NCBI GenBank assembly: GCA_024742355.1
Contig: JANSYM010000003.1
Span: 139,351-203,350 of the forward strand
Reading direction: 5' to 3'
DNA length: 64,000 nucleotides
Source: Hyphomonadaceae bacterium
Lineage (GTDB): Bacteria; Pseudomonadota; Alphaproteobacteria; Caulobacterales; Hyphomonadaceae
The notes below the pieces were generated by a model, which had not been told where the DNA came from, searched no databases, and worked only from the letters and a program-made list of their open reading frames with translations. The position numbers were made by a program, and so were the translations under genes. Shown piece by piece: positions 41,478 to 64,000 of this stretch (position 1 is its first letter; every line of letters starts with the position of its first letter).

Positions 41478-41524
41478 TGCTGACCTTGCGTCGCGCGTTG
41501 ATAATAAAAATAGAGGAAGTGTAG

Positions 41525-45227: not shown

Positions 45228-45308
45228 AGGAATACGGTCATATTGTTTTGCGCAGTTCAAAAGACGCTGCACGTCCGAAACTTAGTGAAAATCAGGAGCA
45301 GTCCGAAC

Positions 45309-48090: not shown

Positions 48091-48106
48091 TTGACTTCGA
48101 ATGCGA
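48091..48106. promoter_or_regulatory. LacI-type operator O1
   Basis: TTGACTTCGAATGCGA, 15 of 16 bases fitting a B/A half-site pair. It lies 82-97 bases before the TonB receptor start at 48188, and with O2 forms a tandem pair 34 bases apart. Confidence 0.7.
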
Positions 48107-48124
48107 GTGGTTAAAAATTCAGTC

Positions 48125-48140
48125 TTGCATTCGAAGTCAA
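48125..48140. promoter_or_regulatory. LacI-type operator O2
   Basis: TTGCATTCGAAGTCAA, an A/B half-site pair, 48 bases before the TonB receptor start at 48188. Central TTCGAA holds the CG pair typical of LacI operators. Confidence 0.75.
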
Positions 48141-48187
48141 AAAGTGCATTCGTTATCGAGAACAAGAAGATTCTAGGGAGGAATGCC

Positions 48188-50590
48188 ATGAGCAAACGCT
48201 CGATTTTCGTGAAAAACCTGTTTAGCGGAGCGGCCATCATCGCTCTGTCGGCGACCGCGCTTACCGCCGTGGCGCAAGATGATGCCGACGCATCAGCGGA
48301 AGAGGCGGATGACCGTCGCCGCATGGGAACCATCACTGTGACGGCGACCAAGGTTGAAGAGAGCGTCCAGGATGTTTCGGCCTCAATCACCGCACTAGAT
48401 GGTGAGTCGCTGGATATGGCGGGGATCGTCGACCCGACGCGCCTCGGCCTGGTTGTGCCAGGTATGACGGTCGGTTACTCCGGCGGTGAAGCACGCATCG
48501 CGATGCGCGGCGCGCGCACGAACAATGTCGGTCCGCAGGCTGCGCAAGTTGTGGGTATCTTCAATGACGGCGCCTATGTCGCGACAACGACACAAGTCAT
48601 GGCAAGCTATCTCGACCTGAACCGCGTGGAAGTTCTTCGCGGACCGCAAGGTACGCTTTATGGTCGAAACACGTTTGCTGGTACCATCAATCTCATCTCG
48701 AACGAACCAGACTTTGATGAGTTTAGCGGCAACCTTCAAGGGACGCTGGGCGACTATAACAGAACGCGTGTGACTGGTGTGCTCAATGTTCCGGTCACGG
48801 ACACATTTGCGCTGCGATTCGCCGGTTTGGGTGAGCAGCATGATGGATACATCGTAAATTCTTACATCGATGGTCCGCGCGATGACCTTCGAAACGAAGA
48901 CGTTCAAATCTTCCGAGCTACAGCACGCTGGCAACCGACCGACAAGCTCGATGCTACACTTCGATACACGACTTCTGAGCGCGACACCAACGGCGATGCG
49001 ATCTGGGGATACACGCAAATCGGCTGCTATAGAAACAACCTGGATGGAACAACATCGACAGGACTATCAGCCAATTCGACGTTCGTCTCAGGGCACTGCT
49101 ATCAGCCGGGTCCGAATGCTTCAGGTAGAACCTCGCCCGGCGGCGAGGCGACGCAGCAGGATGCTGGGCCGTGGGATGTGGCGCGAAATACACCATCTCG
49201 CAATGCCAATGAAACCGATTCCTGGAACCTGCAAGTCGAATATGATCTTGGTTGGGCCACGGTAGATTTCATCGGGTCATTCGACACGTTCGAGGGAATT
49301 CAATACTACGACCCAGACTACTCTGACGGCAATTTCGACGGTTTGGATGATCTGAACAATTTCTTTGCAGGATACGATACCAGCCAGGACACTCAATCTT
49401 ATGAGCTGCGTCTGACATCCAATCCGGATTCCAATAGCCGCTTGGAGTGGTTGATCGGGGCCTTCTTCTACAAGTCGGAAGCAGACTGGCAGTTCGGTTT
49501 CCTGAACAATGGTCAGTTCCAGCGTTACAATACGGCCACGAATGACACGTTTGACAGTGAGTCATCAGCCCTGTTTGGTAACCTGACTTTCTCTGTAACA
49601 GATCAGCTGAGACTCATTGGCGGCCTTCGTGTGAACGACGATGACACGGTCTTGATCGGCGGGGGAGAAGGTGGAAGCTCCGATGAAACGCTGTGGAAAG
49701 CAGGGCTGGAGTTCGACTTCGGCGATGATGAAATGTTCTACGCCACCGCGTCGACAGGATACAGAATTGGAGGCGTGAACGGTTCTGCCTTGGTGGCCGC
49801 TGGAGCACCGCCTTCTTATGGTCCGGAAAAGGTCACCGCATACGAAGCGGGTGTTAAGAGCACGCTGCTAGATGGCACGTTGACCCTTAATGCGGCACTG
49901 TTCCACAACAAGTACGAAGATATGCATGCGCAATCGTTTGTAACAGCTTGTATTGATCCAAATGACCCACTGACCTGCATCGCGTCTGAATTCACCGAAA
50001 ACGGTGGCGAAATCGATGCGACCGGTCTTGAGATCGAGTTCAACTGGCTGCCGGGTGATGCCTGGTTCTTCAACGGTTCTGCGTCGTTCCTCGACTCCGA
50101 GTTCGGCGAGTACAATGTAGGCCGGGTAAATGGTCTGGGTAATCTTGGCGGACGTCAGGATGTGACCATGACCACCGGCGAGATTGTTGCGGCTGGCGGT
50201 GTACCATCGCTCTCCTTGGCAGGCTGGACACCAGCATTGAACCCTGAGTTCACGGCGTCGCTTCAGGCGGGATACGTTTTCGACCTGGGTGGCGGTAACT
50301 TCCTGACGCCAATGCTGCAAACCTCTTACTCTGACGACTATTGGACCTTCGACTTCAACGTCCCTGGTTCAGAGCAGGATGCATACACGAAAACAGATCT
50401 GCGTCTGACTTGGCGGAACGAAGAGCACGGGTTCGAACTGGAAGGTTTCGTCGAAAACCTCGAAGATGAAGCTGTCATCACGCGCTCTGTGATCTTCACA
50501 CCGAGCCAGGCCGATGTCCCAACGGCATCGATCCAGGCGAACTATGCTGACCCGCAGATTTGGGGCGTGCGTCTCGGCGTGGATTTCTAA
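48188..50590 (+). CDS. TonB-dependent outer-membrane receptor of the LacI regulon
   Basis: 800 residues from ATG 48188, behind AGGGAGG. Signal peptide about 1-27 (ATALTAVAQ). Plug domain with GTITVTATKVEESVQDVSAS and RGPQGTLYGRNTFAGTINLI. The barrel contains an unusually Gly/Asn/Ser-rich extracellular loop near residues 285-330 and ends in GVRLGVDF. Two operators O1/O2 precede it. It supplies the substrate of the catabolic genes to its right. A strong terminator follows. Confidence 0.92.
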   Translation: MSKRSIFVKNLFSGAAIIALSATALTAVAQDDADASAEEADDRRRMGTITVTATKVEESVQDVSASITALDGESLDMAGIVDPTRLGLVVPGMTVGYSGGEARIAMRGARTNNVGPQAAQVVGIFNDGAYVATTTQVMASYLDLNRVEVLRGPQGTLYGRNTFAGTINLISNEPDFDEFSGNLQGTLGDYNRTRVTGVLNVPVTDTFALRFAGLGEQHDGYIVNSYIDGPRDDLRNEDVQIFRATARWQPTDKLDATLRYTTSERDTNGDAIWGYTQIGCYRNNLDGTTSTGLSANSTFVSGHCYQPGPNASGRTSPGGEATQQDAGPWDVARNTPSRNANETDSWNLQVEYDLGWATVDFIGSFDTFEGIQYYDPDYSDGNFDGLDDLNNFFAGYDTSQDTQSYELRLTSNPDSNSRLEWLIGAFFYKSEADWQFGFLNNGQFQRYNTATNDTFDSESSALFGNLTFSVTDQLRLIGGLRVNDDDTVLIGGGEGGSSDETLWKAGLEFDFGDDEMFYATASTGYRIGGVNGSALVAAGAPPSYGPEKVTAYEAGVKSTLLDGTLTLNAALFHNKYEDMHAQSFVTACIDPNDPLTCIASEFTENGGEIDATGLEIEFNWLPGDAWFFNGSASFLDSEFGEYNVGRVNGLGNLGGRQDVTMTTGEIVAAGGVPSLSLAGWTPALNPEFTASLQAGYVFDLGGGNFLTPMLQTSYSDDYWTFDFNVPGSEQDAYTKTDLRLTWRNEEHGFELEGFVENLEDEAVITRSVIFTPSQADVPTASIQANYADPQIWGVRLGVDF

Positions 50591-50653
50591 TCCTCCTGGC
50601 ATTTGCGCGTTTCCGTAATCCTCCGATCTGGCGGAGTGTGCAGATGACACCTG

Positions 50654-50684
50654 AAGGGAGGCCTTTTCGAGGCCTCCCTTTTTC
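50654..50684 (+). terminator. intrinsic terminator after TonB receptor
   Basis: AAGGGAGGCC and GGCCTCCCTT form a perfect 10-bp stem with a 7-base loop, followed by TTTCT. Confidence 0.88.
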
Positions 50685-50720
50685 TTAATGTAGCCGAATT
50701 GAATGGGGAGCCGGAACAGC

Positions 50721-52220
50721 ATGGGCTTTAGAGGTGCGTTCTCGAGACCAGTGATTGTTGCCGGTGCCTTCGCGGTTGCGGCGTGCACCAGCGGATTGAT
50801 GAACGAACGAGACAGCAATTCCAATTCCTCATTGGCTGGCGGTCAATTAGAGCGGCTTGCAGACCTCTCCATCGACGCGCTTCGAGAGCGAACATATGGC
50901 GAGAGTGAACTTTCAATCATTGGGCCGATTGAACGGCTCTGTACAAGCCAGGAGCGCGATAGAGAGCGGCCTCGCCAAGCTGAGCGGTTTATGGCGCAAT
51001 ATCAGTCTGAAGGGCACTCGGTGTATACGAGAATCGACGTCCCGTTCGCTGAGCCGCCGCTTCAAGGCTATCCCGTCATGGTATTTGCGCACGGCTGGGT
51101 CGGGGCTGAAAATGCACCGAACTGGCATTTCGGATGTACGCTGGAGTCCAGCTATGGTGACATCTACGGCAATGTGATCAATGCGTGGGCTGAAGCCGGT
51201 TACGTCGTCCTCGTGCCTGGCTATCGTGGCCACGGAACGGTGGATAACAATCCGGCAGAGGGCCATGCAGACATGCTGGCTTGGGACAACGGCACATATT
51301 TGATGCCAAGCTTTTACGCTGTGGATGTCCTCAATTTGATCGCCGGTATAAAACTTGGTGGCGGAGTTCTTGTGCCTGACGAAACCGGCGCGGCGCAAAG
51401 TGTCCGGATCGACCACTCGCGCATTTTCATGAACGGTCATTCCCAGGGCGGTGATGTGACACTGACCGTTCTTGCAGCGACCGGGGAAGGCGCGGCATCA
51501 GGACTCGAACTTGCGGGGGGCTCAATCTGGGCCGGAAATATCGCAGACCGATTTGAGCAGCTCGCGACATTCGAGGCTATGGCCACGAGCCCCGAGGCAT
51601 TCTTATCGGGGGACGGCTCATGGACGGCAACCACGACCGGGGCTGACGGCTCAACAAACCCAAACTTCGTTTTTGGCTATCCACCCGATTGGATTGGATC
51701 CCCTCATCCGGACGAGTGGACGTGGCAATCGGAAACCTTCTCGCGAGACCGTGTGGTAGACGCGCTGCGTGCGAAAGCAAGCGTGATGTACGAAACGTTG
51801 AACAACCAAATCAGCGAATTCGGAGACCTTTCCTGGACGCTGGAAACGACTGAGGATGGACGGGATATCATCGTGCACGATGTTCGCCTGCTGGACTCGC
51901 TGCGTCAGGTTGGCGGCGCAGATGCCGCGGCCTTTCTCACTGAACCGCTCAACCTGCATTTCTCCGATCGTGACTATTACTCTCTTCCGACATGGAATTA
52001 TGAGCTTTGTGAACGGGCGAATGCTGCAGGCGGCGCGTGCCGCACATTCGAGTATTTTGGTAACACTCACAGCTTGGGGATAAGCGAACATGAGTGGTTT
52101 TCTCCACCCGAAACGCTGGAAGGGCATCGCCAGTTTATAGAGCATGATCTTTGTCGTTTTGGGCGGGCGAGTTCGGACGAAGAAGGATCCCGTCATTGCC
52201 AGGCTCAGGATAATCGCTAA
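50721..52220 (+). CDS. exported alpha/beta hydrolase (esterase-like lipoprotein)
   Basis: 499 residues from ATG 50721 (GGGGAG upstream); ATG 50703 adds six residues. The signal ends in FAVAACT, a lipobox. Hydrolase features: VMVFAHGWVGAENAPNWHFG, RGHGTVDNNPAEGHADMLAW, the nucleophile elbow MNGHSQGGDVTLTVL (about 240) and a late His in EYFGNTHSLGISEHEW. Probably a periplasmic ester hydrolase that trims the substrate brought in by the adjacent receptor. No operator stands directly before it, so it may be read through the terminator or have its own promoter. Divergent in sequence from the lipase at 20033. Confidence 0.8.
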   Translation: MGFRGAFSRPVIVAGAFAVAACTSGLMNERDSNSNSSLAGGQLERLADLSIDALRERTYGESELSIIGPIERLCTSQERDRERPRQAERFMAQYQSEGHSVYTRIDVPFAEPPLQGYPVMVFAHGWVGAENAPNWHFGCTLESSYGDIYGNVINAWAEAGYVVLVPGYRGHGTVDNNPAEGHADMLAWDNGTYLMPSFYAVDVLNLIAGIKLGGGVLVPDETGAAQSVRIDHSRIFMNGHSQGGDVTLTVLAATGEGAASGLELAGGSIWAGNIADRFEQLATFEAMATSPEAFLSGDGSWTATTTGADGSTNPNFVFGYPPDWIGSPHPDEWTWQSETFSRDRVVDALRAKASVMYETLNNQISEFGDLSWTLETTEDGRDIIVHDVRLLDSLRQVGGADAAAFLTEPLNLHFSDRDYYSLPTWNYELCERANAAGGACRTFEYFGNTHSLGISEHEWFSPPETLEGHRQFIEHDLCRFGRASSDEEGSRHCQAQDNR

Positions 52221-52227
52221 GAGTATT

Positions 52228-52243
52228 TGCATTCGAAGTCATA
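52228..52243. promoter_or_regulatory. LacI-type operator O3
   Basis: TTGCATTCGAAGTCAT, an A/B half-site pair with one outer mismatch, 58 bases before the symporter start at 52301. Confidence 0.72.
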
Positions 52244-52300
52244 AATCGCTCTTAAAAGAGCAACTTCGCGCTTAGTAGCGGGTTGGGAGGCCTGACGATT

Positions 52301-53932
52301 ATGGAATTCGGCGCACTAAACTGGGCAATCGTCGCGGCCTATTTGATTGGGAATCTATTTCTCGGCTACATGATGAGCCGCAAAGTTAAAACGGCCGCCG
52401 ACTATCAGTTAGGAGACCGGTCTGCGCCTTGGTGGGCAATCGGGATTTCAGTCGTGGCGACTTATGTCAGCGCCTTGTCCTTCCTCGGGGGACCGGCCTG
52501 GGCCTATGGCGATGGAATGGCGGCGCTCGCCATCCATATCAATTATCCGCTCGTAATTTTTGTCGTCATCGTTTTGTTTTTGCCGTTCTTTTACAATAGC
52601 GGTGTCGCCTCGATATATGAATATCTCGAGCAGCGGTTCGGACTCGCATCGCGGACCGTCATGTCGGCCATTTTCCTGCTGACGCAAACGATCACAACCG
52701 CGTCTATTCTGACCGCCACTGCCGTGGTGATTACGTTCGCGACAGGTATTGATGTGGGCGTGGCGATCATTGGCATGACCCTCGTTGTGCTCGTTTACAC
52801 CCTGATGGGGGGTATGAATGCCGTGATCTGGACCGATGTGCTTCAAGGCGTGATCCTGTTCCTCGGGGCGGGCATCGTGCTGTGGGGTTTGTTGGGCGAA
52901 GTCAGCCCGCTCTCAGTAGCGCTTGATTCGCTGGCATCAGACGGCAAGCTCAATCCCATTAACACGGACCTTGATTTCTCCGTCGCGCCAACCGTTTGGG
53001 CCGGCGTTCTTGCGATGACCCTGTTTCACATCACGGTTTATGGCACCAATCAGATGATGGTGCAGCGCGCGCTCGCCGCGAAGACGCTTGGGGATGCCAA
53101 GAAGTCCTATCTGATGATGGGCTTTGCGGCATTCTTCATCTACTTCTTATTCTTCTTCATCGGCGCGCTCCTCTATGTGCATTTCAAGGGTGAACCATTC
53201 AAGCAACCGAATGAAATCATCTTGGTCTTTGCACAATCGCTCGCGATTCCAGGATTGATGGGGATCTTGGCGGCTGCGGTTCTGTCCGCTTCCATGTCGA
53301 GCCTCTCTTCAGCTCTCAATTCTCTGGCGACTATTTCTGTTACTGACTTCTATCAGAGGTTTTATAAGCAAGAAGCGAGTGCGGAACATTTCCTCGGGGC
53401 TTCGCGACTGTTTACGTTCGTCTGGGCAGCGCTCGCTGTTCCGGTCGCATTTGCATTCATCAATAGTGGCGGGTCGATCCTGGAATCCTTGAGCCGAGTT
53501 GCGTCCTATTTCGTGGGTGCCAAGCTCGCCATGTTCGGGTTGGGCTTTCTATCCAAGCACACCAGCGAACGGGGCCTCCTTGTCGGTGTTGTAGCTGGGT
53601 TCCTGGGCTTGTTCGCAATTGTCGCTGGGGTCCCGGCCATTGGCCTCGAGCCTGCCAATGTCGCCTGGCCTTGGTATGTCGTCATTGGCGGCGTCATCAA
53701 CATTATCGTATCGTGGACTGCTAGTGTCCTGCTGGATGGGTTTCAGAAGGACTGGCATCCGCAGACTGTGGTGGGGCAGCTGCGTCGGTTCAAATCCGAA
53801 GGTCTCGCTGAGAAGCAAAACGGTTGGTACGTGGTGCCGGGGCGGGTTGATAACATCGCTTGGTACCTGCTCGGCTTCTTCGTTTTGATTGTGCTCTTCC
53901 TAACCTGGTTTGGCACGCTTGGGGGCGCTTAG
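52301..53932 (+). CDS. sodium:solute symporter of the LacI regulon
   Basis: 543 residues from ATG 52301, with GGGAGG 12 bases upstream; a GTG-type extension from 52283 is less likely. Fourteen or so membrane segments with SSS marks: TAADYQLGDRSAPWWAIGIS, ATYVSALSFLGGPAWAYGDG and the NSLATISVTDFYQRF helix boundary. It moves the periplasmic product of the receptor substrate inward with Na+. Similarity is to sugar/organic-acid symporters rather than proline or pantothenate carriers. Operator O3 is in front. Confidence 0.9.
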   Translation: MEFGALNWAIVAAYLIGNLFLGYMMSRKVKTAADYQLGDRSAPWWAIGISVVATYVSALSFLGGPAWAYGDGMAALAIHINYPLVIFVVIVLFLPFFYNSGVASIYEYLEQRFGLASRTVMSAIFLLTQTITTASILTATAVVITFATGIDVGVAIIGMTLVVLVYTLMGGMNAVIWTDVLQGVILFLGAGIVLWGLLGEVSPLSVALDSLASDGKLNPINTDLDFSVAPTVWAGVLAMTLFHITVYGTNQMMVQRALAAKTLGDAKKSYLMMGFAAFFIYFLFFFIGALLYVHFKGEPFKQPNEIILVFAQSLAIPGLMGILAAAVLSASMSSLSSALNSLATISVTDFYQRFYKQEASAEHFLGASRLFTFVWAALAVPVAFAFINSGGSILESLSRVASYFVGAKLAMFGLGFLSKHTSERGLLVGVVAGFLGLFAIVAGVPAIGLEPANVAWPWYVVIGGVINIIVSWTASVLLDGFQKDWHPQTVVGQLRRFKSEGLAEKQNGWYVVPGRVDNIAWYLLGFFVLIVLFLTWFGTLGGA

Positions 53933-53963
53933 TCGCAAAGATCCGATGTATTAAATTTTCAAT

Positions 53964-53979
53964 TTGCATTCGAATGCAA
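53964..53979. promoter_or_regulatory. LacI-type operator O4 (perfect palindrome)
   Basis: TTGCATTCGAATGCAA, perfect over 16 bases and over 18 with flanking T/A, 37 bases before the start at 54017. Confidence 0.82.
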
Positions 53980-54016
53980 AAATGCTAAGACGGCTCCGTT
54001 AGTACGGAGACTAGTC

Positions 54017-55315
54017 ATGGCCAAATGGCTCAAAGAGGGCATTGATCCCGACATCAAGCAAAAAGCCGATGCGCAGGTTCGCAAGACGGTTGAGGATATT
54101 CTCGAGGACATCGACACGCGCGGTGATGCCGCCGTGCGCGACCTGTCAGAAAAGTTCGATAAGTGGAGCCCGGACAGCTACCGCCTGAGCCGGGAAGAGA
54201 TCGATGCTTGCTACAAAGAGCTCGACGAACAGGCAATCAGCGATATCCGCTTCGCCCAGGAGCAGGTGCGCAACTTCGCGCAAATCCAGAGGGATGCGCT
54301 ACAAGATGTCGAAGTCGAAACACTCCCCGGCGTAATCCTGGGGCATAAGAATGTGCCGGTGAACTCGGTCGGCTGTTACATTCCAGGCGGCAAATATCCG
54401 CTGATCGCGTCCGCACATATGAGCGTTGTTACGGCGAAGGTGGCGGGCGTTCCGCGTATTATCGCGACGGCTCCGCCATTTGAGGGGCGTCCGCATCCCG
54501 CCATCGTTGTTGCTATGGATATGGCTGGCGCGGACGAGATTTACTCTCTCGGCGGCGTGCAGGGCATTGGCGCCATGGCGATCGGGACGGAATCCATCGC
54601 ACCGGTCGATATGATTGTCGGACCCGGGAATGCCTATGTCGCTGAGGCCAAGCGCCAGCTGTTTGGACGCGTCGGGATCGACTTATTTGCTGGGCCAACT
54701 GAAACGCTGATTATCGCAGATGAAAGCGTCGATGAGGACTTTTGCGCCGCTGATTTACTTGGGCAGGCGGAGCACGGCCCGACCTCACCGGCCGTCTTGC
54801 TCACCAACTCGGAGAGCCTTGCCAAGCGCACGATGGAGGCGGTCGAGCGACAGCTTGAATGGCTGCCAACTGCCGACGTTGCTGGCGAAGCCTGGCGCGA
54901 ATATGGTCAGGTCATCGTATGCGATAGCTACGAAGAAATGGTCGAAGTTGCCGACGAGATCGCTTCAGAGCACGTCCAGGTTATGACGAAAGACCCTGAC
55001 TACTTCTTGGACAATATGACCAATTACGGGGCGCTGTTCCTGGGACAGGAAACGAACGTGTCCTACGGCGACAAAGTCATCGGGACAAACCACACGCTGC
55101 CAACCATGAAAGCGGCGCGCTATACAGGCGGGCTTTGGGTTGGTAAGTTCATTAAAACTTGTACGTTCCAGCGCGCTACGCGGGAAGCTTCTGTTATGGT
55201 TGGAGAATATTGTTCTCGTCTTTGCGCATTAGAAGGATTTGCAGGTCATAAAGAACAGGCAGATATTCGTGTGAGACGCTATGGCCAACAACCCGCGCAA
55301 AAAGAACCCGCCTGA
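54017..55315 (+). CDS. HisD-superfamily dehydrogenase, HpsN-like
   Basis: 432 residues. It belongs to the histidinol-dehydrogenase superfamily but is a poor fit for histidine synthesis: no other his gene is nearby and it sits in a catabolic regulon. Family marks: [49 protein letters not shown] and, near the end, [11 protein letters not shown], a segment typical of the (R)-sulfopropanediol 3-dehydrogenase (HpsN) group. It would perform a two-step NAD+-dependent oxidation of a primary alcohol to an acid. Substrate is not settled. Overlaps lacI by 35 bases. Confidence 0.82.
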
Positions 55316-56351
55316 GGACGAGTCCAAAGTCATTCCTCTGATCAAAGGAAGACGCGCCACGTCGTATGATGTTGCGCGTCTTGCCGGCGTATCACAATCA
55401 GCAGTTTCGCGCTGTTTCAAGCCTGGTTCCAGCATTTCTGGGAAAATGCGCGAGCGCGTGATGAAGGCGGCGAAGGAGTTGGAGTATCAGCCCAATGCAA
55501 TAGCTCGAGGTCTGATAACACAACGCTCAAATCTGGTTGCGGTGCTGGTGTCGGGCAGATTGAATCTCTACTATCCAGAAGTGTTATTCAAAATCACTGA
55601 AGAGCTTTCGGCCGCCGGATTGCGCGCGTTGCTTTTCACAGTCGATAGCGAAGATGATGCCGATATGGTGATAGAACAGGCATGGCAGTTTCAGGTCGAT
55701 GGCGTGATTTCGGCGTCACATATGTCGAAAGAGCAGTATGCGGTATTGGAGAAGCGCCAAATTCCTGTCGTTTTCTTCAATCGGTACTTCGCTGATCATC
55801 CGAACACAGTCGTATATTGCGACCCATCCGAACAAGTAGAAGAGGTCGTGAAGCAGCTTAGCGATCTGGGACACCGCAACGCATCGATGATCACTGGTCC
55901 GTCGGCGAATATGGTGAGTCGCGAACGTGCGAGGTTGGTAGAGACCAGTCTGAAGCGAAACGGCATCGAACTCATTTCGACAGTCCAGGGCGATTTTACA
56001 TATGAAAGTGGAGCAGCTGGGCTGCAGGAAATTCAGCTGCATGGATCCGGTGCGCCAACCGTCATTATCTGTGTTAACGACATGATGGCGATGGGATGCA
56101 TGGACGAAGCGCGGTCAGTTTTGGAGCTTGATGTTCCAAAGGACCTTTCGATTGTGGGCTTTGATGGCATCGGCATGAGCCAATTTTCCAGCTACGAGCT
56201 AACAACGATCCGTCAGCCTATTGGCAGGATGTCGGAGTCAGCTGTGCGCATGATCACCGAACGCGTTGAACGTCCCGATCAGTCCCACGAAAAACGAGTC
56301 TTCGAAGGCGCAGTAATTCCTGGCGGTTCTATTGCCCGCGCGCCCACATAG
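55281..56351 (+). CDS. LacI family transcription regulator
   Basis: 356 residues. N-terminal LacI helix-turn-helix and hinge at about 25-80 ([37 protein letters not shown]), then a periplasmic-binding-like effector domain ([50 protein letters not shown]). The ATG lies 35 bases inside the HisD-like gene, so both are expressed together from O4. Most likely the repressor that binds the seven TTGCATTCGAATGCAA-type sites here and controls its own synthesis. Inducer unknown. Confidence 0.9.
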
Positions 56352-56355
56352 ACGT

Positions 56356-56371
56356 ATGACTTCGAATGCAT
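56356..56371. promoter_or_regulatory. LacI-type operator O5
   Basis: ATGACTTCGAATGCAT, a B/A half-site pair with both outermost bases changed, beginning 4 bases after the lacI stop and ending 17 bases before the start at 56389. Close to the ribosome binding site, so it could act as a roadblock. Confidence 0.68.
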
Positions 56372-56388
56372 ATTCGGAGTGAAACGTC

Positions 56389-57543
56389 ATGAAAACCAGC
56401 CAGGATCGAATTCTCACGACACATGTTGGCAGCCTGCCGCGGTCGAAGAAAGTCACGGAGTTGGTGTTTGGCCATGAGGCTGGAGATCCCATCGATCAAT
56501 CTGAATTTGATGCGGTCATCTCCAACGCTGTCTCCGAGACAGTGAAAAGACAGCGCGAGTCTTCTGTCGACATTGTTAGCGATGGTGAGATGAGCAAGAT
56601 CTCTTATGCGACATATATCAAAGACCGCATTACCGGATTTGACGGCGATAGCCCAAGGCGCGCGCCGGCAGACCTTGAAGAATTTCCGGGCTTCCTCGAG
56701 CGTCAGGCCAAGGGCGGCGGCACGCCGACATATCGCCGCCCCAAATGCGTTGGCGAAATCACCGTCAAAAGCATGGAGCCGTTGCAGGCTGACTTGCGCC
56801 ATTTTTCTGCGGCACTGGACGGGGCAGGTCATAGCGACAGCTTCATGAACGCGGCCAGCCCCGGCGTCATCGCACTGTTCCAGCCAAACGAGTATTACGG
56901 CACACAAGACGAATATCTGGAGGCATTGGCTGAAGCGATGCGGCCTGAATATGAGGCGATTGTTGAGGCTGGCCACATCTTGCAACTCGACACGCCAGAC
57001 CTCGGTCTCGGTCGTCATATGATGTTCAAGGACAAACCGCTAGAAGACTATCACCGCCTCGCCAGTCAGCATGTGGAAGTGCTGAACCATGCCTTGCGCA
57101 ATGTGCCGGGCGATCGGGTTCGGATGCATATCTGTTGGGGCAATTATGAAGGACCGCATCATTGCGACGCGCCAATGGACGAAGTGCTGCCTGTCGCGCT
57201 CAAAGCGAAACCACAAGGTCTCTTATTCGAGAACGCCAATCCTCGCCACGGTCATGAATGGACTGTCTTCGCCGACGCCGAAAAGCGCGGCGAGCTAAAA
57301 GACAAAATCCTCATCCCAGGCGTAATCGACTCCACCACGAATTTCATCGAGCACCCCGAGCTCGTGGCACAGCGAATTGAGCGGTTCATCGATATTGTCG
57401 GGAAAGAGCGCGTGATTGCCGGGACCGATTGTGGCTTTTCGACTTTTGCCGGGTTCGGGGCCGTCGATGAGGATATCGTTTATGCCAAGCTCGGCGCGTT
57501 GGCTGAAGGCGCTGAGCTTGCGTCCGAGAGACTGTGGGCATGA
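56389..57543 (+). CDS. MetE-like (cobalamin-independent methionine synthase II family) zinc protein
   Basis: 384 residues, the C-terminal catalytic half of MetE only (TTHVGSLPRS at the start). All four zinc ligands are present: His and Cys in MHICWGN (about 244-250), Glu in LFENANPRHGHE, Cys in AGTDCGFSTFAG. Without the N-terminal domain it is unlikely to be the housekeeping methionine synthase; this family includes thiol-activating and demethylating enzymes, such as epoxyalkane:CoM transferase. In this regulon it probably handles a methylated or thiol-bound intermediate. ATGA-coupled to the aldolase gene. Confidence 0.85.
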   Translation: MKTSQDRILTTHVGSLPRSKKVTELVFGHEAGDPIDQSEFDAVISNAVSETVKRQRESSVDIVSDGEMSKISYATYIKDRITGFDGDSPRRAPADLEEFPGFLERQAKGGGTPTYRRPKCVGEITVKSMEPLQADLRHFSAALDGAGHSDSFMNAASPGVIALFQPNEYYGTQDEYLEALAEAMRPEYEAIVEAGHILQLDTPDLGLGRHMMFKDKPLEDYHRLASQHVEVLNHALRNVPGDRVRMHICWGNYEGPHHCDAPMDEVLPVALKAKPQGLLFENANPRHGHEWTVFADAEKRGELKDKILIPGVIDSTTNFIEHPELVAQRIERFIDIVGKERVIAGTDCGFSTFAGFGAVDEDIVYAKLGALAEGAELASERLWA

Positions 57544-58292
57544 GCCTGAAACAAATGCTCCGCGATCAGACGCCTCTGGTCGGTACGTTTTTGAAGACAC
57601 CATCGGCGATGGTTTGCGAAGTCTTGGGTCGAAGCGATTTGGATGTAATCTGTCTCGATGCCGAGCATTCGCCATTCGATCGCGGCGATATCAATGATTG
57701 TGTGCTCGCCTTGCGGCATGTGGGTAAGCCGAGTCTAGTGCGCATCCCGGCCAATCGGCCTGAGCAAATTCTCAACGCGCTCGACTGCGGGGCGACGGGT
57801 GTCTTGGTGCCGCATGTGATCACAGGCGAAGATGCCGAGTCCTTGGCTGGAAACGCGCATTTCGGAACGGGTCGTGGCTATGCCGGCTCGTCTCGCGCAG
57901 CGGGATATGGCGCGCGCAATATGGCTGAGCACAAAGCCAGAAGCGCCGAGGAAACGGTGGTCATCGCGCAAATCGAAGACGCCGAAGCGCTCGACAATCT
58001 CGATGCGATTTTTGCTGCCGCGACCATCGATGCCTTTTTTATTGGGCGGGCCGACTTGTCGGTGTCGCTTGGCGCAGATGGGCCCAACGACCCTCAAGTC
58101 ATTGAAGCCGTCGAGGCGATCTGTGCCAAGGGTAGAGAGGCGGGTGTCTCAATTGGCATGTTCACAGGGAACCTGGATGAGCTGCCAAAATGGTGCGCTG
58201 CTGGAGCGAGCCTTTTTCTGCTCGGGTCAGATCATGGATTCATGCTGACCGGCGCAGCGCAAATGGCCAAGCAGGTTCGGTCTCACTTCTAG
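57540..58292 (+). CDS. HpcH/HpaI family aldolase
   Basis: 250 residues from ATG 57540, coupled to the MetE-like gene. Class II metal-dependent aldolase of the 2,4-dihydroxyhept-2-enedioate type: GTFLKTPSAMVCEVLGRSDL, the DAEHSPFDRGD metal-ligand region, GVLVPHV and FIGRADLSVSLG. It would cleave a 2-keto-3-deoxy acid to pyruvate and an aldehyde. End converges with the amidohydrolase gene (4-base overlap at 58289-58292). Confidence 0.87.
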   Translation: MSLKQMLRDQTPLVGTFLKTPSAMVCEVLGRSDLDVICLDAEHSPFDRGDINDCVLALRHVGKPSLVRIPANRPEQILNALDCGATGVLVPHVITGEDAESLAGNAHFGTGRGYAGSSRAAGYGARNMAEHKARSAEETVVIAQIEDAEALDNLDAIFAAATIDAFFIGRADLSVSLGADGPNDPQVIEAVEAICAKGREAGVSIGMFTGNLDELPKWCAAGASLFLLGSDHGFMLTGAAQMAKQVRSHF

Positions 58293-59185
58293 ATGCGATA
58301 AAAGCGCTCCGCCACGGACCTGAACATCTGATCGCGCTCGCTTGGCGAGTACGCACCGCAAATGCTCAGATAGGTGCCCATCGTGTCTTCGTAGGATGCG
58401 TAGAGTTTATCGACCGGGAAGTTCGATCCAAACGCAACCCGCTCCGGGCCAAAAATCTCGATCGCGCGATGGATGAGCGGGGCTATTGAGTCCGGCGTCC
58501 AGTCATGTTGAAACATGCCGAAACCGGAGAGCTTGCAGATCATGTTTGGAAGGTCGGCCAGCGCTTGTAGCCCGCGAGTCCATTCGGCGAGGCTGGGCTC
58601 ATCAAACGCGCTCAAAGAGCCGCCATGACAAAGCGCTACTTGCAAGTTGGGGACTTTCGCAAACAGCGCCGCTGATGCTTGCATCAATGGCGGCGTCAAC
58701 TGCAGGTCAAAAGAGAGGTCTTTCTTTGCCAGAGCGCGCAGACCTTGTTCAAACCTGGTATCGCTTAGCAGTGCGGATGTGCCGGTCTTGCGATCTTCTT
58801 CGGCGCTGCGTCCGATGATCTGACGAACGCCGCGAACGGCTGAATGCGCCAGATGAGTGTCCAGCTCAGCTTCAACGGATTCACTGGTCAGATCACAGAA
58901 TGGAATTATCGCCGTTGGCAATCCAAACTGGTCTGCCTGGTCTTGCAGCCAGGCGGTCTCGTTGACGCTGTCATCAACCTCAACGCCAACCTGAATATGA
59001 ACTGATTTCTTGACCGGGATCGCGCCGAAATCGGCCCTCAGGTCAGAAACGTGATAGTTCTTTTGAATTGGCGCAGGATCACCAAAGAAACGAACCACGC
59101 CGCGTTCGGAGAGCCAGGTGTGTCGACACGCATCAAGGTCCCACAAATGGTGGTGGGCGTCGACAAGGTAGGGCAGGTCAGTCAC
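58289..59185 (-). CDS. amidohydrolase (fuconolactonase/rhamnonolactonase-like)
   Basis: 298 residues from GTG 59185, which overlaps the previous gene's stop (GTGACTGA); the long frame up to 59263 would run inside that gene. The start VDAHHHLWDL carries the first metal-binding His pair, the segment ALCHGGSLSAFD a later one, and FGSNFPVDKLYASY the end-of-barrel Asp region changed to Asn. Amidohydrolase-2 proteins of this kind open sugar lactones or cleave pyrone-type rings. Last gene of the bicupin operon. Confidence 0.82.
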   Translation of the reverse strand: MTDLPYLVDAHHHLWDLDACRHTWLSERGVVRFFGDPAPIQKNYHVSDLRADFGAIPVKKSVHIQVGVEVDDSVNETAWLQDQADQFGLPTAIIPFCDLTSESVEAELDTHLAHSAVRGVRQIIGRSAEEDRKTGTSALLSDTRFEQGLRALAKKDLSFDLQLTPPLMQASAALFAKVPNLQVALCHGGSLSAFDEPSLAEWTRGLQALADLPNMICKLSGFGMFQHDWTPDSIAPLIHRAIEIFGPERVAFGSNFPVDKLYASYEDTMGTYLSICGAYSPSERDQMFRSVAERFYRI

Positions 59186-60245
59186 GCTGATATCTCGCGG
59201 TCGCAATTTGGCGGCGCAGCGCGATGTCATCCCAAATCGTGATTTGCTCGCGCACACGACCATTCATGACGCGGAAATGCGTCACACCAAGAATGTAGAC
59301 AGGCGCGTCGCTTGGCTGCCCATAGCGCCCTGCGCCGCTATGTGTTCCGGTTGCGGCCCAGCGCAGCGACACATCGCGCGCCTCACCAAGATATGGGATG
59401 TCCGCGACATGATCGATCGATACTGTCAAATCCGGAAAGGCCTTGCGCAACGCCGCGCACCAGCTCTGGATCTGATCGGGTCCATATAGAGACACATCGC
59501 CTGGGAAAGACGCCCCAACGCGATAGTCATACAGCGCTTGCAGCTGCTCCAGATCCGCGCCGGAAAACGACGCGCGCAGAGCTTTTGCGGCAACTGCAAC
59601 CGCATCAGATAGATCTGTAGCGACCGCGTCGCCAGAAAGAGCTGCCTCACGGTTCGCTGCATGGAAATCGATCAGACTGAAACTGTTCACCTTGTCGGCC
59701 TGCGCCTGCTCTTTGGCGACACGGTCTGGATCGAACCCGAGCTGCTGGACGGCAGCCAGATTGTCTCGCACAAGCCATTCTTCGATGACGCGGTTATCCT
59801 TGCACAGACACTCAGCGATTGTCTGAATTCTTAACTGCTTGCCCGTCACCGGGCCGAACTCGCTTGGCCCCTCATTGGTCATCTTGGAAGTGATGAGGTG
59901 CGACGAATAGAATGCGCCATCCCCTTCGTCCGACCATATCACATTGTCCGCGTCGAGGCGGCGGTCGGGAAACGCTTTCAAGGTCGCCCAGGTGTTCTCA
60001 ACTACGGTTTGCGCTCCAGCAATGTCGCCGGCCATCGTATGAATGGCACAATCTTCAGCATACCAATCGAGACATTTCTCTACGTCGCGATCATGCCAGA
60101 TCCGCTCAGTGATGCGGATAATATAATGCGGGAAGTCGACAAACTCGTCATCAAAGCCGGGAAGGTCCATGCGGCGCTCCAGGCCAGGCGCCATCATCTC
60201 GGCAATATCTGTGGTCGCGACATGGGTGATCGGTTTCTTGCTCAT
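59178..60245 (-). CDS. tandem SnoaL/NTF2-like protein
   Basis: 355 residues from ATG 60245 (AGGA 5 bases upstream). Two NTF2-like folds in one chain: residues about 40-180 (YIIRITERIWHDRDVEKCLD, TWATLKAFPDRRLDADNVIW, EWLVRDNLAAVQQLG) and about 230-350 (ADLEQLQALYDYRVGASFPG, AALRKAFPDLTVSIDHVAD, REQITIWDDIALRRQI). The SnoaL superfamily holds cyclases, isomerases and dehydratases with few fixed residues. In this operon it may shape or isomerise an intermediate; two domains suggest a pseudo-dimer. Downstream of the SDR gene by 7 bases. Confidence 0.78.
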   Translation of the reverse strand: MSKKPITHVATTDIAEMMAPGLERRMDLPGFDDEFVDFPHYIIRITERIWHDRDVEKCLDWYAEDCAIHTMAGDIAGAQTVVENTWATLKAFPDRRLDADNVIWSDEGDGAFYSSHLITSKMTNEGPSEFGPVTGKQLRIQTIAECLCKDNRVIEEWLVRDNLAAVQQLGFDPDRVAKEQAQADKVNSFSLIDFHAANREAALSGDAVATDLSDAVAVAAKALRASFSGADLEQLQALYDYRVGASFPGDVSLYGPDQIQSWCAALRKAFPDLTVSIDHVADIPYLGEARDVSLRWAATGTHSGAGRYGQPSDAPVYILGVTHFRVMNGRVREQITIWDDIALRRQIATARYQRD

Positions 60246-60252
60246 ACTATTC

Positions 60253-60978
60253 CTATTGTGCGGTCCAGCCGCCATCGACCACAAGGGAGTGGCCGGTAAT
60301 CATCTTGCCTGCGGGGCCACATAGATAAAGCACGGCTTCAGCAATGTCCTCGGTGCTGGCAACCGTGCCAAGCGGGATCATGCGTTTCACGAAGGCTGAA
60401 AATTCCGGATCCGCCAGCATTGGTTTGGTCATCGGTGTTTCGACAAAAGTCGGTGCAACCGAATTTACACGAATGCCCTTTTCAGCGAGTTCCACCGCCA
60501 TCGCTTTGGTTAGGCCTTCAATGGCATGCTTGGTCATGCAGTAAACGGTTCGCTTGGGCGATCCGACATGACCCATCTGAGAACTGATATGCACAATGCG
60601 TCCGCCCGATGGCATGACGCCAAGCGTCGCGCGTGAAACGCGATAGGTGGTACGCACATTCAGATCGAGCATGCGATCAAGATCTTCATCGGTGACGTCG
60701 GTCATCGGTTTGGGAATATTGGTACCAACATTGTTGACCAAAATGTCGATGCGCTCCTGGCTCGCAATGAAGTCCAGCAATGCGTCAGATCCCGCGTCTC
60801 CTGTCCACGGCGTACAGCGCTCAGAGAATGACGCGGCGAGGTCATCCATCGCCTCCGACGCCCGCGCGACTGGAATGATCTCTGCTCCCGCGTCGTGCAA
60901 AGATTCGCAGATGGCTCGCCCAATACCGCGACTTGCACCGGTGACAACGGCTCGCTTGCCGCTCAAGTCTTGGTTCAT
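60253..60978 (-). CDS. SDR family oxidoreductase
   Basis: 241 residues from ATG 60978, overlapping the bicupin stop (ATGA); GTG 60984 is the alternative. Motifs: VVTGASRGIGRAICESL at about 12, NNVG near 80, YCMTKHAIEGLTKAM with the catalytic Tyr/Lys, and MITGHSLVVDGGW at the end. It oxidises a secondary alcohol such as a sugar or hydroxy acid. Together with the amidohydrolase it resembles the dehydrogenase plus lactonase steps of non-phosphorylative sugar routes. Confidence 0.9.
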   Translation of the reverse strand: MNQDLSGKRAVVTGASRGIGRAICESLHDAGAEIIPVARASEAMDDLAASFSERCTPWTGDAGSDALLDFIASQERIDILVNNVGTNIPKPMTDVTDEDLDRMLDLNVRTTYRVSRATLGVMPSGGRIVHISSQMGHVGSPKRTVYCMTKHAIEGLTKAMAVELAEKGIRVNSVAPTFVETPMTKPMLADPEFSAFVKRMIPLGTVASTEDIAEAVLYLCGPAGKMITGHSLVVDGGWTAQ

Positions 60979-61967
60979 GTCCACTCGACTTCTGGAATAT
61001 TGTCGCCTCCGCGAACCGCGACGAGCCGTGCTGCGACATCGTTTGCATTTGTGAGCGATCTCGTCGCGCCAATTGGGAAGGTGATCGTATCGCCAGCCGT
61101 GAGGATTGTTTTCTCACCGTCTAAAGTGACGATGATCTTGCCCGATTGAACGAAATATACGTCGGCAACGCTCAAGCTATGCGCGGGAAGCGTTGTTCCC
61201 GGCTCAATGTCCAATTCGCTAAGTGTAAACCCATGCGACCAGTCGATTGGCTTGGGGCCAATCAATGCGGTCTCGCGGATCCCATTGAGCGTGTTGAATG
61301 GCCCAAAGTTCACACTGGCGCCGGATCGAATCACGCACGCCTCTAACTCAGCGTTGCCAAAAACATCCAGCGCGGCAACTTGAGCTTCCGTCGTGACTGG
61401 CATCACCGCTTTTCCAGCAGGAACTTTCTCGCCCTTATTGATATCAATCAACATACCGTCTTCGAGAAGGATCAAGCCATAATCCCGCGCCATATCGAAT
61501 ACTTTTGGAGCCCACAGCACATGGCCAGGATCGTCACCGCCTAGAACCGCCCAAAGAAAACCATCACTTTCGCCAATATTGGTGAAACCCCGAAAGACAT
61601 TCGTTGGGATCGAAATCAGGTCTCCCGGCCCGAGGCAGATCTGGGCGTCATCGGCGTTTTCACCAAGGTCAAATCGCCACTGGCCTGTGTGGACGTAGAA
61701 GACTTCAACGGTCTCGTGGCTGTGTTGCGAGTTGGTGCAACGCGGCGGTTGGCGCGCGCCGCCAATGTTGAAGCCGTGTGGCTCAGCAATATGAACATGC
61801 TGGTTTGGATTTTCCGATACGCCAGGACCGATAATGGTGAAGTTTTCTTTCTTGTCAGAGCCGGGCGTGCGTGTGTCAATAAATGCATCATAGCACGGTT
61901 CAAGTTCGGCATAGCGAACGATCCGGTCTTCGATTTTGGAGCGTTCCTGTACAATAGTATCTGGCAT
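60975..61967 (-). CDS. bicupin (gentisate-dioxygenase-like) protein
   Basis: 330 residues, first gene of a four-gene operon (bicupin, SDR, NTF2, amidohydrolase). Two cupin barrels: the first with HSHETVEVFYVHTGQWRFDL (about 83-102) and LGPGDLISIPTNVFRGF, the second with LPAHSLSVADVYFVQSGKII (about 252-271) and LTAGDTITFPIG. The first has metal-type His/Glu ligands (H.H....E); the second keeps only part of them. It may be a metal dioxygenase or isomerase. Operator O6 stands 35 bases upstream. Confidence 0.8.
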   Translation of the reverse strand: MPDTIVQERSKIEDRIVRYAELEPCYDAFIDTRTPGSDKKENFTIIGPGVSENPNQHVHIAEPHGFNIGGARQPPRCTNSQHSHETVEVFYVHTGQWRFDLGENADDAQICLGPGDLISIPTNVFRGFTNIGESDGFLWAVLGGDDPGHVLWAPKVFDMARDYGLILLEDGMLIDINKGEKVPAGKAVMPVTTEAQVAALDVFGNAELEACVIRSGASVNFGPFNTLNGIRETALIGPKPIDWSHGFTLSELDIEPGTTLPAHSLSVADVYFVQSGKIIVTLDGEKTILTAGDTITFPIGATRSLTNANDVAARLVAVRGGDNIPEVEWT

Positions 61968-62001
61968 GGCGATGATCCTTCTATGCCTATGCTTATCAGT
62001 T

Positions 62002-62017
62002 TTGCATTCGAAGTCAA
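62002..62017. promoter_or_regulatory. LacI-type operator O6
   Basis: TTGCATTCGAAGTCAA, identical to O2. It overlaps the last bases of the hydrolase gene (stop at 62014-62016) and lies 35 bases before the bicupin start. Confidence 0.78.
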
Positions 62018-62769
62018 TTTGGTGTTTCTACGACTTCGAGTTTGCAGTTTCCGTTTCTTGTGGCGTAAGCGCCTGGTCGCGCGAGCAACTCGAGAATCGC
62101 GCCCGATACCGCCTCTGGCTGTTCAAGCGTAGAAATGTGCCCACAGTTCGAAAGCACGGTTAGCTGCGACGCTCCAATTCGATTTGCGATTTCCTCGTGG
62201 CGGTCGATCGGACAGACTGTATCGTCCGCACCTGCAATCACGAGCGTTGGGCAAAGGATCGACGACGCTGTCTCGAGATAGGCGTCCCGAATGGTCAAAG
62301 CCATCGTTTGCCTGCAAAACACATCCTTACCGAGCGCCACTCCCATGGCTTCCAATAGTTCGAGGCGCTCCGGCGTCCTGTTCAAAGGGGCCAGATATTG
62401 AGGTTTCAGCTCCTCGCGCAGTACTAGATCGAGTTCACCGGCGGCAACCCGTCCCAGTTGCTTCTTTCTTGCTAGTCCGGCTGCATCGGCGCGAGCAGTT
62501 GTATTCATGAGTGCGAGATGCGTGACGCGCTCCGGCGCTTGTTTGTAAATCTCCAAAGCGACAATCCCGCCCATCGAGAGACCGGCGACGGCGAACCTTT
62601 TGGGAGCATCTTTCAATACCATTTGAGCCATACGCTCGATCGAACAGGCCTGGGTCAAATCGCCCACGGAGCAAGCGACCCCTTTTCTAGAAAGCGCTTC
62701 AATCTGGGGGCGGAACAACCGCCCATCGCACATGAAACCGGGAAGAAATACGACTGACTGACGTTTCAT
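62014..62769 (-). CDS. alpha/beta hydrolase
   Basis: 251 residues from ATG 62769; a longer frame up to 62847 would cross operator O7. Motifs: VVFLPGFMCDGRLFRPQIEA at the start, nucleophile elbow AGLSMGGIVALEIYKQAPER (about 88-107), Asp in VIAGADDTVCPIDRHE and His in LSNCGHISTLEQPEAV. No signal peptide. Likely an intracellular ester or C-C bond hydrolase in the same route; similar folds act on ring-cleavage products and enol lactones. Faces sdaA across O7. Confidence 0.83.
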   Translation of the reverse strand: MKRQSVVFLPGFMCDGRLFRPQIEALSRKGVACSVGDLTQACSIERMAQMVLKDAPKRFAVAGLSMGGIVALEIYKQAPERVTHLALMNTTARADAAGLARKKQLGRVAAGELDLVLREELKPQYLAPLNRTPERLELLEAMGVALGKDVFCRQTMALTIRDAYLETASSILCPTLVIAGADDTVCPIDRHEEIANRIGASQLTVLSNCGHISTLEQPEAVSGAILELLARPGAYATRNGNCKLEVVETPN

Positions 62770-62811
62770 GACACTGATTCCATGGCTGGCAATCTCTGAT
62801 AAAAGCACATA

Positions 62812-62827
62812 TTGCATTCGAATGCAA
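62812..62827. promoter_or_regulatory. LacI-type operator O7 (perfect palindrome)
   Basis: TTGCATTCGAATGCAA, identical to O4, between divergent hydrolase (start 62769) and sdaA (start 62848) genes, so one site can control both. Confidence 0.82.
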
Positions 62828-62847: not shown

Positions 62848-64000
62848 ATGTTATCTGTCCTAGAAGTCTTTCGGGTGGGAATCGGCCCATCCAGTTCCCA
62901 CACGGTCGGGCCAATGCGCATCGCTCGACGCTTCATGCGCTCGGTTGCTAGTTTGCCGGAATTGAAAGCGGGCCGGCGGCTCGAAGTCTCACTGAGAGGG
63001 TCGCTCGCGTTCACAGGCGAAGGGCATGGAACTCCGAGGGCCGTAACACTCGGATTGCTCGGATTTGACCCCGAAACAATCGATTTGGACCGCGCCGCTC
63101 AGGCGCTGCAGACACTCACCCACAGCAAGCGTTTGCAGTTGACCGCTGACATAGAACTCGATTTCGATCCTGCGCGCGACATTGCAATGGATTTTGAGCA
63201 GCCTGCCGATCTCCATCCAAACGAAATGGAGTGCTGCATACTAAACGAGCAAGGTGAGCGGCTGGTATCGGAAGTGTTCTATTCCACAGGTGGCGGTTTC
63301 ATCGCATCGCAAGCGCAATTGAAGAGGCCCGTCGAAAGCGACTTTGTAACAGCAGGGAGCTCCGTTCCCTTCGAATTTGGCTCAGCGGCAGAATTGCTCG
63401 AGCATTGTGAACGAGAAGGGGTGAGTGTTCACGAGATCGTTCTTGCAAATGAGGATGCCAAGCGAGCACGACTGGCGACAAAATCCGCACTGGCTGAAAT
63501 CATGTCCGTCATGATGAATTGCATCGATCGCGGACTAGAAACCGAAGGCATTCTTCCGGGCGCGCTCGAGGTAACCAGGCGCGCTCCTAAACTTTGGGGC
63601 AAACTTTGCGCGCAGCTGCGGGCGAATGAAAAAGAACAACTCTTCGATTGGCTGAACACTTATGCCATGGCGGTCAATGAAGAAAATGCCGCAGGCGGCA
63701 AAGTTGTGACCGCGCCGACAAATGGCGCAGCGGGAATAATCCCCGCAGTCCTGAGACACTATTGCGCTGATAGCCCGAGATCAGTGCAGGATGTCGAAAC
63801 GTTCTTGCTTACAGCCGGCGGTATCGGCCTCCTTTATAAACAACGCGCTTCGATTTCTGGCGCAGAGATGGGATGCCAAGGCGAGGTGGGCGTTGCCTGC
63901 TCAATGGCGGCGGGCGGCCTTGCGGCGGTGTGGGGAGGTACGCCGCAACAAGTGGCGCAAGCGGCCGAAATCGGGATGGAGCACAATTTAGGATTAACCT
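62848..64000 (+). CDS. sdaA: L-serine ammonia-lyase (3' partial)
   Basis: 384 codons open to the window end; ATG 62848 follows GGGAAGG. Start [20 protein letters not shown] is the signature of one-chain iron-sulfur L-serine dehydratases. The catalytic alpha part shows [20 protein letters not shown] and [20 protein letters not shown] with Fe-S cysteines; a third is expected beyond the window. It converts serine to pyruvate and ammonia. Under operator O7, it suggests that the pathway yields serine or uses the enzyme on a related hydroxy-amino acid. Confidence 0.93.

Follow-up and report, generated by a model that had tools for sequence, protein, structure and literature searches.

Local regulons of the LacI family described in RegPrecise and by Ravcheev et al. 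(2014, PMC4052901) combine a regulator encoded inside the gene cluster with binding sites upstream of transporter and catabolic operons, and the abstract of that study gives nearly 90% of the studied LacI-family proteins as local regulators of sugar use, leaving the sign of control unstated. We analyzed a 64,000-nucleotide stretch (the window) from the genome of a Hyphomonadaceae bacterium (GCA_024742355.1), which corresponds to positions 139351-203350 of contig C1 (JANSYM010000003.1) in a 3.46-Mb assembly of 18 contigs that is 99.76% complete. A gene cluster in this window shares both features of the described regulons, a LacI-family gene inside the cluster and sites upstream of transporter and catabolic operons, whereas its genes form no recognised sugar pathway. 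In the main text of PMC4052901, histidinol, Sphingomonadales and Alteromonadales are never mentioned, and a match in its supplementary tables, which this count did not cover, is possible. On sequence grounds, the cluster is a genuine local regulon of the LacI family and belongs to a known type, predicted to control a widespread pathway. The LacI-family protein encoded at 55281-56351 is very probably a local repressor that binds a 16-bp palindrome, both here and in a second cluster of the same genome, and shuts the uptake and catabolic genes.

The operator pattern is a 16-bp palindrome, about W-T-G-[CA/AC]-TTCGAA-[TG/GT]-C-A-W, and shares with LacI operators in general an even length and a central CG. 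A search of both strands of the window for TTGCATTCGAATGCAA with up to three mismatches returned six matches (48091, 48125, 52227, 53964, 62002 and 62812), compared with a mean of 0.60 in 100 dinucleotide-preserving shuffles, none of which reached six. A seventh site at 56356 (ATGACTTCGAATGCAT) escaped this search because it has four mismatches to TTGCATTCGAATGCAA. When the window was scanned with a matrix built from its own seven sites, they alone scored 13 or more, each reaching at least 22.2; since the matrix was trained on these sites, the absence of other scorers is the informative part. A preliminary description of the window had reported seven sites and no similar ones in the first 48 kb. 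Both searches bear this out, except that the third site starts at 52227 rather than 52228. The reported spacing of 17-97 bases to the start codon holds if O1 is measured from the start of the site (97) and O5 from its end (17). The predicted operators are as follows.

O1, 48091..48106: TTGACTTCGAATGCGA, distal member of a tandem pair upstream of the TonB receptor gene
O2, 48125..48140: TTGCATTCGAAGTCAA, 34 bp from O1
O3, 52227..52242: TTGCATTCGAAGTCAT, upstream of the symporter gene
O4, 53964..53979: TTGCATTCGAATGCAA, upstream of hisD-like and lacI
O5, 56356..56371: ATGACTTCGAATGCAT, upstream of the MetE-like gene, matrix score 22.3
O6, 62002..62017: TTGCATTCGAAGTCAA, read as TTGACTTCGAATGCAA towards the bicupin operon
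O7, 62812..62827: TTGCATTCGAATGCAA, between the divergent hydrolase gene and sdaA

Lying between the divergent starts of the hydrolase gene (minus strand, likely ATG 62769) and sdaA (ATG 62848), O7 can serve both. An eighth site is found just beyond the window at C1:205241 (window coordinate 65891), between divergent genes for 337- and 349-amino-acid (aa) double-SnoaL proteins. With each site serving the genes downstream of it, the regulon comprises at least 16 genes on C1 and 14 on contig C8; the count of 14 genes in the preliminary description stopped near the window edge.

Across the whole genome, matches with up to three mismatches occupy 21 distinct places, versus five for a reversed control. 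Thirteen of these fall in two clusters and, together with two O5-type cluster sites that have four mismatches, make 15 strong sites, eight on C1 and seven on C8, each group within one cluster. A wide scatter of the motif over the genome, named beforehand as evidence that would speak against the regulon, was therefore not observed for the strong sites. The second cluster (C8:297499-314403) contains 14 genes in the same order as on C1, its own LacI gene among them, and seven sites in matching places, including a pair of the O1/O2 type (C8:297499/297535) that also recurs in relatives; the O5 position is kept in C8 and in genomes G019, G022, G024 and G016. Protein identities between C8 and C1 are highest for the HisD-like protein (97%), TonB receptor (92%), MetE-like protein (91%) and symporter (89%), followed by the short-chain dehydrogenase (SDR, 84%), LacI and SnoaL (83% each), aldolase (82%), bicupin and 349-aa protein (81% each), 337-aa protein (77%), amidohydrolase (75%), hydrolase (69%) and 505-aa hydrolase (64%). 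Neither sdaA nor its PF03458 partner was found in the C8 cluster stretch. A recent duplication of the cluster is not supported: a tree of eight proteins, from which the C8 SDR and the G022 bicupin were missing, places C1 beside G019 and groups C8 and G022 together, both pairings having a support of 1.000. As the two copies pair with different species, they are old paralogs or one of them was acquired.

The sites follow the regulator within the genus. This LacI (E-value of 1e-60 or better) is present in 7 of 105 genomes of the family, five of them among the 29 genomes of the genus, our genome included, and the bicupin is present in the same five. The operator core TGMMTTCGAAKKCA occurs 13, 6, 7, 9 and 5 times in these five genomes (40 in total), against nine times in the 24 genus genomes that lack this lacI, where it is spread over seven genomes (twice in G006 and G027, once in G009, G010, G014, G023 and G029); the reversed control occurs once in all 29. 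Three further sites in G019 and G022 belong to pieces of the cluster, namely the end of a TonB receptor gene, the genes for the 337- and 349-aa proteins, and another TonB-type gene that carries two sites of its own. The predicted tie of the sites to LacI is well supported by these counts. Among 385 genomes of the class, the exact 16-mer TTGACTTCGAATGCAA occurs in our genome alone, a result that says little because an estimated ∼0.5 chance matches are expected. A degenerate search of the order returned 74 of 299 genomes, among them six of the f174 group with two or three strict sites, the neighbouring ones 2.8 kb apart.

To follow the regulon beyond the genus, we used the bicupin as the pathway marker. 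An alignment scan found at least 573 relatives, hence many bacteria seem to use the same compound. The best 80 of these at least 573 loci, by their titles mostly from α- and γ-proteobacteria with a few from β-proteobacteria, were combined with eight stretches from our own genome (two), the genus and the family and with five plasmid stretches, giving 93 cluster sequences. The most widespread families are the bicupin (80 sequences), LacI (63), HisD-like (61), SDR (58), SnoaL (56), aldolase and MetE-like (50 each) and hydrolase (48), followed by the TonB receptor (45), 349-aa protein (41), symporter (36), 337-aa protein (29), amidohydrolase (23), 505-aa protein (11), SdaA (9) and PF03458 protein (4); these counts are lower bounds because many stretches are short and mechanically called open reading frames (ORFs) hide genes. 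At a matrix score of 17 or more, 186 sites were found in 65 of the 93 sequences, compared with a mean of 2.0 in dinucleotide-block shuffles. For 132 of the 186, the mechanical start of a recognised cluster gene follows within 200 bp, and 42 of these 132 sites are placed between divergent cluster genes. Sequences with a LacI of at least 40% identity carry a site in 49 of 56 cases and two or more in 43, whereas below 40% identity sites occur in two of seven. The best LacI is only 41-54% identical in 42 of the site-bearing sequences, and most of the LacI proteins whose recognition segment is readable have it unchanged as VSQSAVSR.

Among the bacteria that retain the sites are Sphingorhabdus, HTCC2148, Colwellia, Pseudoalteromonas and Kordiimonadaceae. 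In the Kordiimonadaceae genome G491, a strong site on another contig precedes the 349-aa double-SnoaL gene (70% identical), and in Sphingorhabdus (G489) a site just beyond the cluster stretch precedes the same gene (74%). In the latter genome, this operator (region G489:C2:684000-696000, L117) separates the 349-aa gene from a divergent group that includes a 156-aa ORF, an ORF that looks by eye like an aldehyde dehydrogenase, and an alpha/beta hydrolase; the Sphingorhabdus regulon may gain members at this operator. The MetE-like genes of C1, C8 and G024 share about 91% or more with each other, while that of G016 (L024, reverse orientation, 7128-8279) is only 60% identical to them and keeps the operator; the gene has probably been replaced with its control retained.

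The LacI protein gives near full-length matches to CcpA, PurR and LacI structures and has both the helix-turn-helix and a periplasmic-binding-like effector domain. Taking together the sites, their conservation, the lacI tie, the gene content and the second copy, all of them read from the genomes, we infer the following mode of control. LacI would bind at eight places in the C1 cluster and seven in the second copy; the uptake and catabolic genes, together with the hisD-lacI operon that encodes it, would stay shut off until a substrate-derived inducer released the protein. As lacI lies downstream of hisD after O4, it would control itself. The gene-facing half-site (TTGACT or TTGCAT) would double as a −35 box, so that the bound repressor would block RNA polymerase, and the two operators 34 bp apart at the TonB receptor gene would provide tighter control. 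Nine pairs of sites are separated by no more than 60 bp: eight, all upstream of a TonB receptor gene, have a spacing of 33-36 bp, and the ninth one of 16 bp. Modest evidence that the sites may overlap −35 boxes comes from 88 distinct one-direction sites, in which TATAAT-like hexamers show enrichment at spacers of 16 and 17 bp from the first operator hexamer (2.03 and 2.07 of 6 matches; background 1.61; z 2.7 and 2.9).

A number of observations weigh against LacI control of a delimited regulon. The eight weaker places outside the clusters in our genome (one with two mismatches, C8:177025, where the central CG is changed, and seven with three) include one, of three scored, that reaches 17.7 and thus exceeds the threshold, within a mechanical ORF. 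The main matches in five outside stretches (C1 twice, C5 twice, C8 once) score 12.4, 13.9, 17.7, 12.1 and 10.6; the score of 13.9 belongs to a site (C1:65952) that is located between ORFs and 89 bp upstream of one of 254 aa, and the other four are inside mechanical ORFs. Of the nine core matches in genus members without this lacI, only the one in G014, also inside a mechanical ORF, is of the strict CA/AC half-site type. Among the cluster sequences, some genomes are counted twice (C1 and C8; G022 and, seemingly, L027), 54 of the 186 sites are unassigned to a cluster gene, in part since mechanical ORFs cover them, a site is missing from seven of the 56 sequences with a LacI of at least 40% identity, and one is present in 14 of the 30 stretches that contain no LacI, many stretches being cut short. 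A site scoring 20.8 with three mismatches lies outside the cluster on another contig of HTCC2148 (L118:3112, G488:C28:205111). A loose one-mismatch pattern occurs at 19, 22, 16 and 12 places in four genomes of these loci versus 12, 8, 50 and 11 for the control, being not enriched in G490 (16 versus 50) and hardly in G491 (12 versus 11); so poorly separated from its control, it leaves the strict forms alone informative. Finally, the −10 signal is weak (2.0 versus 1.6 of 6), and spacer 10, beside the A-rich edge of the site, equally has a z of 2.7, which makes the enrichment support and not proof.

Three other explanations were considered. The weaker places in our genome, eight against five in the control, indicate that similar strings arise by chance, but it is scarcely credible that the palindromes as a whole are chance strings or a repetitive element (e.g. 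a mobile repeat) with no regulatory role, given that the strong sites are grouped in clusters, are tied to lacI and keep their placement before start codons in diverged genomes. The operators could also belong to another regulator, for example mainly the LacI of the second cluster or else an unlinked one, with the local LacI a bystander or sharing the work. The two LacI paralogs encoded in the genome are 83% identical and do not differ in their recognition segment, so that either or both could bind every site. However, four genus members with one matching lacI retain the sites, and clustering places a LacI of this family in 62 of the 93 cluster sequences, which makes this explanation improbable. 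We likewise consider it unlikely that LacI activates some operons or acts on them as a dual regulator, with a different mode of action at sites off the −35 box than at those over it. The positions of O1 and O2, about 81 and 47 bases upstream of the TonB start codon, and the difficulty of seeing a −10 box at the right spacing at O5 are in favor of such a role, while LacI-family proteins are mostly repressors. The reading of the sites as LacI operators that delimit a catabolic regulon, proposed in the preliminary description, is supported by the confinement of the strong ones to the clusters, their co-occurrence with lacI in the genus and their conserved placement elsewhere.

The HTCC2148 site on the other contig is 40 bp upstream of a 218-aa ORF that is not a cluster gene and has, by eye, the look of a TetR-type regulator. 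On a Sinorhizobium medicae plasmid (L018), TTGCATACGTATGCAA-type palindromes at 4182, 4204, 11964 and 15470 surround a related cluster and are possibly the operator of a more distant Sinorhizobium LacI.

The genes of the C1 cluster are listed below; the families named in the preliminary description were confirmed by Pfam.

48188..50590, plus strand: TonB-dependent receptor, 800 aa (PF00593, PF07715)
50703..52220, plus strand: probable secreted alpha/beta hydrolase, 505 aa, without a Pfam match
52301..53932, plus strand: sodium:solute symporter (SSF; PF00474, TIGR00813; scanned from 52283)
54017..55315, plus strand: HisD-superfamily dehydrogenase with motif G-K-Y-P-L (PF00815)
55281..56351, plus strand: LacI-family regulator (PF00356, 2.4e-14; PF13377, 1.6e-21)
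56389..57543, plus strand: MetE-like protein of the cobalamin-independent methionine synthase II type (PF01717), zinc-site motifs kept
57534..58292, plus strand: HpcH/HpaI-family aldolase (PF03328)
58289..59263, minus strand: amidohydrolase-2 family hydrolase, lactonase-like (PF04909)
59178..60284, minus strand: double-SnoaL (NTF2-like) protein (PF07366, two stretches)
60253..60984, minus strand: short-chain dehydrogenase (PF13561)
60975..61967, minus strand: bicupin, the pathway marker (Cupin domains)
62014..62769, minus strand: alpha/beta hydrolase (PF00561; ORF open from 62847, likely ATG 62769)
62848..64000, continuing to 64224 past the window, plus strand: sdaA, L-serine dehydratase (SDH_alpha, SDH_beta)
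Past the window end, divergent: 337-aa and 349-aa proteins with SnoaL domains, sharing the eighth site

The TonB receptor start was set to ATG 48188 by reading the sequence, as the listed ORF begins at 48101, inside O1; the symporter probably starts at ATG 52301, chosen in the same way. Downstream of sdaA, past the window end, lies a PF03458 'glycine transporter' gene. In the 505-aa protein, a serine motif, HSQGG, and a late His do not vary among the seven aligned sequences, and Foldseek matches of its AlphaFold2 model include acetyl esterases, lipases and S9 peptidases; an alpha/beta-hydrolase fold is probable, the model (mean confidence, pLDDT, of 70) being used for the fold class only. The bicupin model is more confident (mean pLDDT 91.4), with oxalate decarboxylases as top Foldseek matches, then MncA, quercetin dioxygenase and vicilins/seed storage bicupins (TM score about 0.5-0.6), and its first-domain residues H82, H84 and E88 are invariant in 37 sequences. 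Solved relatives of the aldolase are mostly hydroxyketoacid-type aldolases, and the amidohydrolase scores under the NCBIfam fuconolactonase cut-off.

Two proteins of the cluster resemble well-known enzymes. Among the closest solved relatives of the HisD-like protein is HpsN, a sulfopropanediol 3-dehydrogenase (PDB 8v35, PMC11382572), and the Glu-His, Asp and Lys positions reported for it are kept in the alignment. In place of the HpsN motif G-R-Y-A/S-H, whose His binds the sulfonate according to the same source, the protein has G-K-Y-P-L without the His. An HpsN-type sulfonate pathway, considered for this closest solved relative, was therefore set aside, as the diagnostic His is missing and no sulfonate lyase is found among 20 Pfam-scanned proteins. 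A biosynthetic HisD role was also rejected: the HisD motif is G-S-A-P-L, and the protein is closer to HpsN (1.2e-120) than to HisD (2.8e-85), despite scoring above the TIGR00069 cut-off. The motif [KR][YF]P[LM] is present in all 56 pattern-read motifs of 64 HisD-like ORFs, eight being unmatched by the pattern. The MetE-like protein has in common with cobalamin-independent methionine synthase the PF01717 domain match and the motifs HxCWGN and TDCGF, whose His-x-Cys and Cys we take to be zinc ligands. It differs in falling under the cut-off of all seven listed NCBIfam models and in its place in a catabolic cluster, and a methionine synthase role was rejected (best 99.9 bits versus a cut-off of 406 on curated models), though the zinc motifs are kept. 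Among 50 MetE-like ORFs, 48 have H-x-C-x-G and 47 a DCGF-type motif; the two without both motifs are stretch-end fragments, and in L062 the DCGF-type motif alone is missing.

From these families, a series of reactions can be proposed. One pathway would start with outer-membrane uptake, probable periplasmic ester hydrolysis and sodium symport; the HisD-like and SDR dehydrogenases would then oxidise the compound, the MetE-like protein would transfer an alkyl group, double-SnoaL proteins would isomerise or dehydrate, hydrolases would open a lactone or ester, and after a bicupin step, aldol cleavage would give a pyruvate-type product. The substrate, we infer, is small, methylated and rich in oxygen, and sets free glycine or serine. 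Mycosporine-like sunscreens are methoxylated cyclohexenone or cyclohexenimine rings with CH2OH that carry glycine and often serine. From these structures, as generally known, it can be speculated that the regulon is a bacterial pathway for such compounds, a proposal that we regard as doubtful. If so, the HisD-like enzyme would turn the ring CH2OH to COOH, the MetE-like protein would remove the O-methyl group, and the hydrolases would free glycine and serine, which would account for sdaA and the PF03458 transporter gene. The bicupin would open the enediol ring to 4-carboxy-4-hydroxy-2-oxoadipate, which an HpcH- or RraA-type aldolase would split to pyruvate and oxaloacetate. Among the matches listed in a literature search on mycosporines, no work apparently deals with mycosporine-breakdown genes. 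Judging by titles and abstract starts, and outside the supplementary regulon tables of PMC4052901, no publication listed under the enzyme names describes such a cluster; this agrees with the regulon being called new in the preliminary description and falls short of proving it.

Plasmid clusters of roseobacters and rhizobia, e.g. those of Octadecabacter arcticus, Ruegeria spp. and Marinovum algicola, have the same enzyme families around the bicupin. By automatic annotation, they contain an ABC transporter, hisD, ester cyclases, SDR, lacI, cupin, alpha/beta hydrolase, RraA and often a MetE-like gene. They differ from the C1 cluster in having a sugar-type ABC importer in place of the TonB receptor and symporter, and mostly RraA in place of HpcH. 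In Octadecabacter, Sinorhizobium and Alloyangia, LacI is 31-35% identical and no site reaches the threshold, except for a weak one in Sinorhizobium. The operator can be viewed as an address label that suggests which genes work together in α- and γ-proteobacteria. It would join about 16 genes annotated as 'histidinol dehydrogenase', 'methionine synthase', 'ester cyclase' and 'cupin' into one co-regulated pathway, for which these automatic names are misleading. Record titles and sources of several relatives refer to bloom, algal, coral and soil settings, which is merely suggestive.

Further ester-cyclase clusters were observed on two plasmids. On the Vibrio pelagius plasmid NZ_CP090616.1 (29078-48055; L132), four ester-cyclase genes and a sugar-type ABC importer adjoin four sarcosine oxidase subunit genes, purU and an L-serine ammonia-lyase gene. 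On the haloarchaeal Halobellus limi plasmid NZ_CP031313.1 (138164-163123; L136), five ester-cyclase genes lie together with a MetE-like gene and an ABC importer, which suggests that this pathway type crosses domains. Finally, the part of the window preceding the cluster (36707-48016) contains LysR-like, TonB receptor, symporter, GHMP kinase, ADP-ribosylglycohydrolase and MGH1-like hydrolase genes without strong operator sites; a homolog of the ADP-ribosylglycohydrolase (80%) adjoins the operator-controlled 349-aa gene in G022 (L127).

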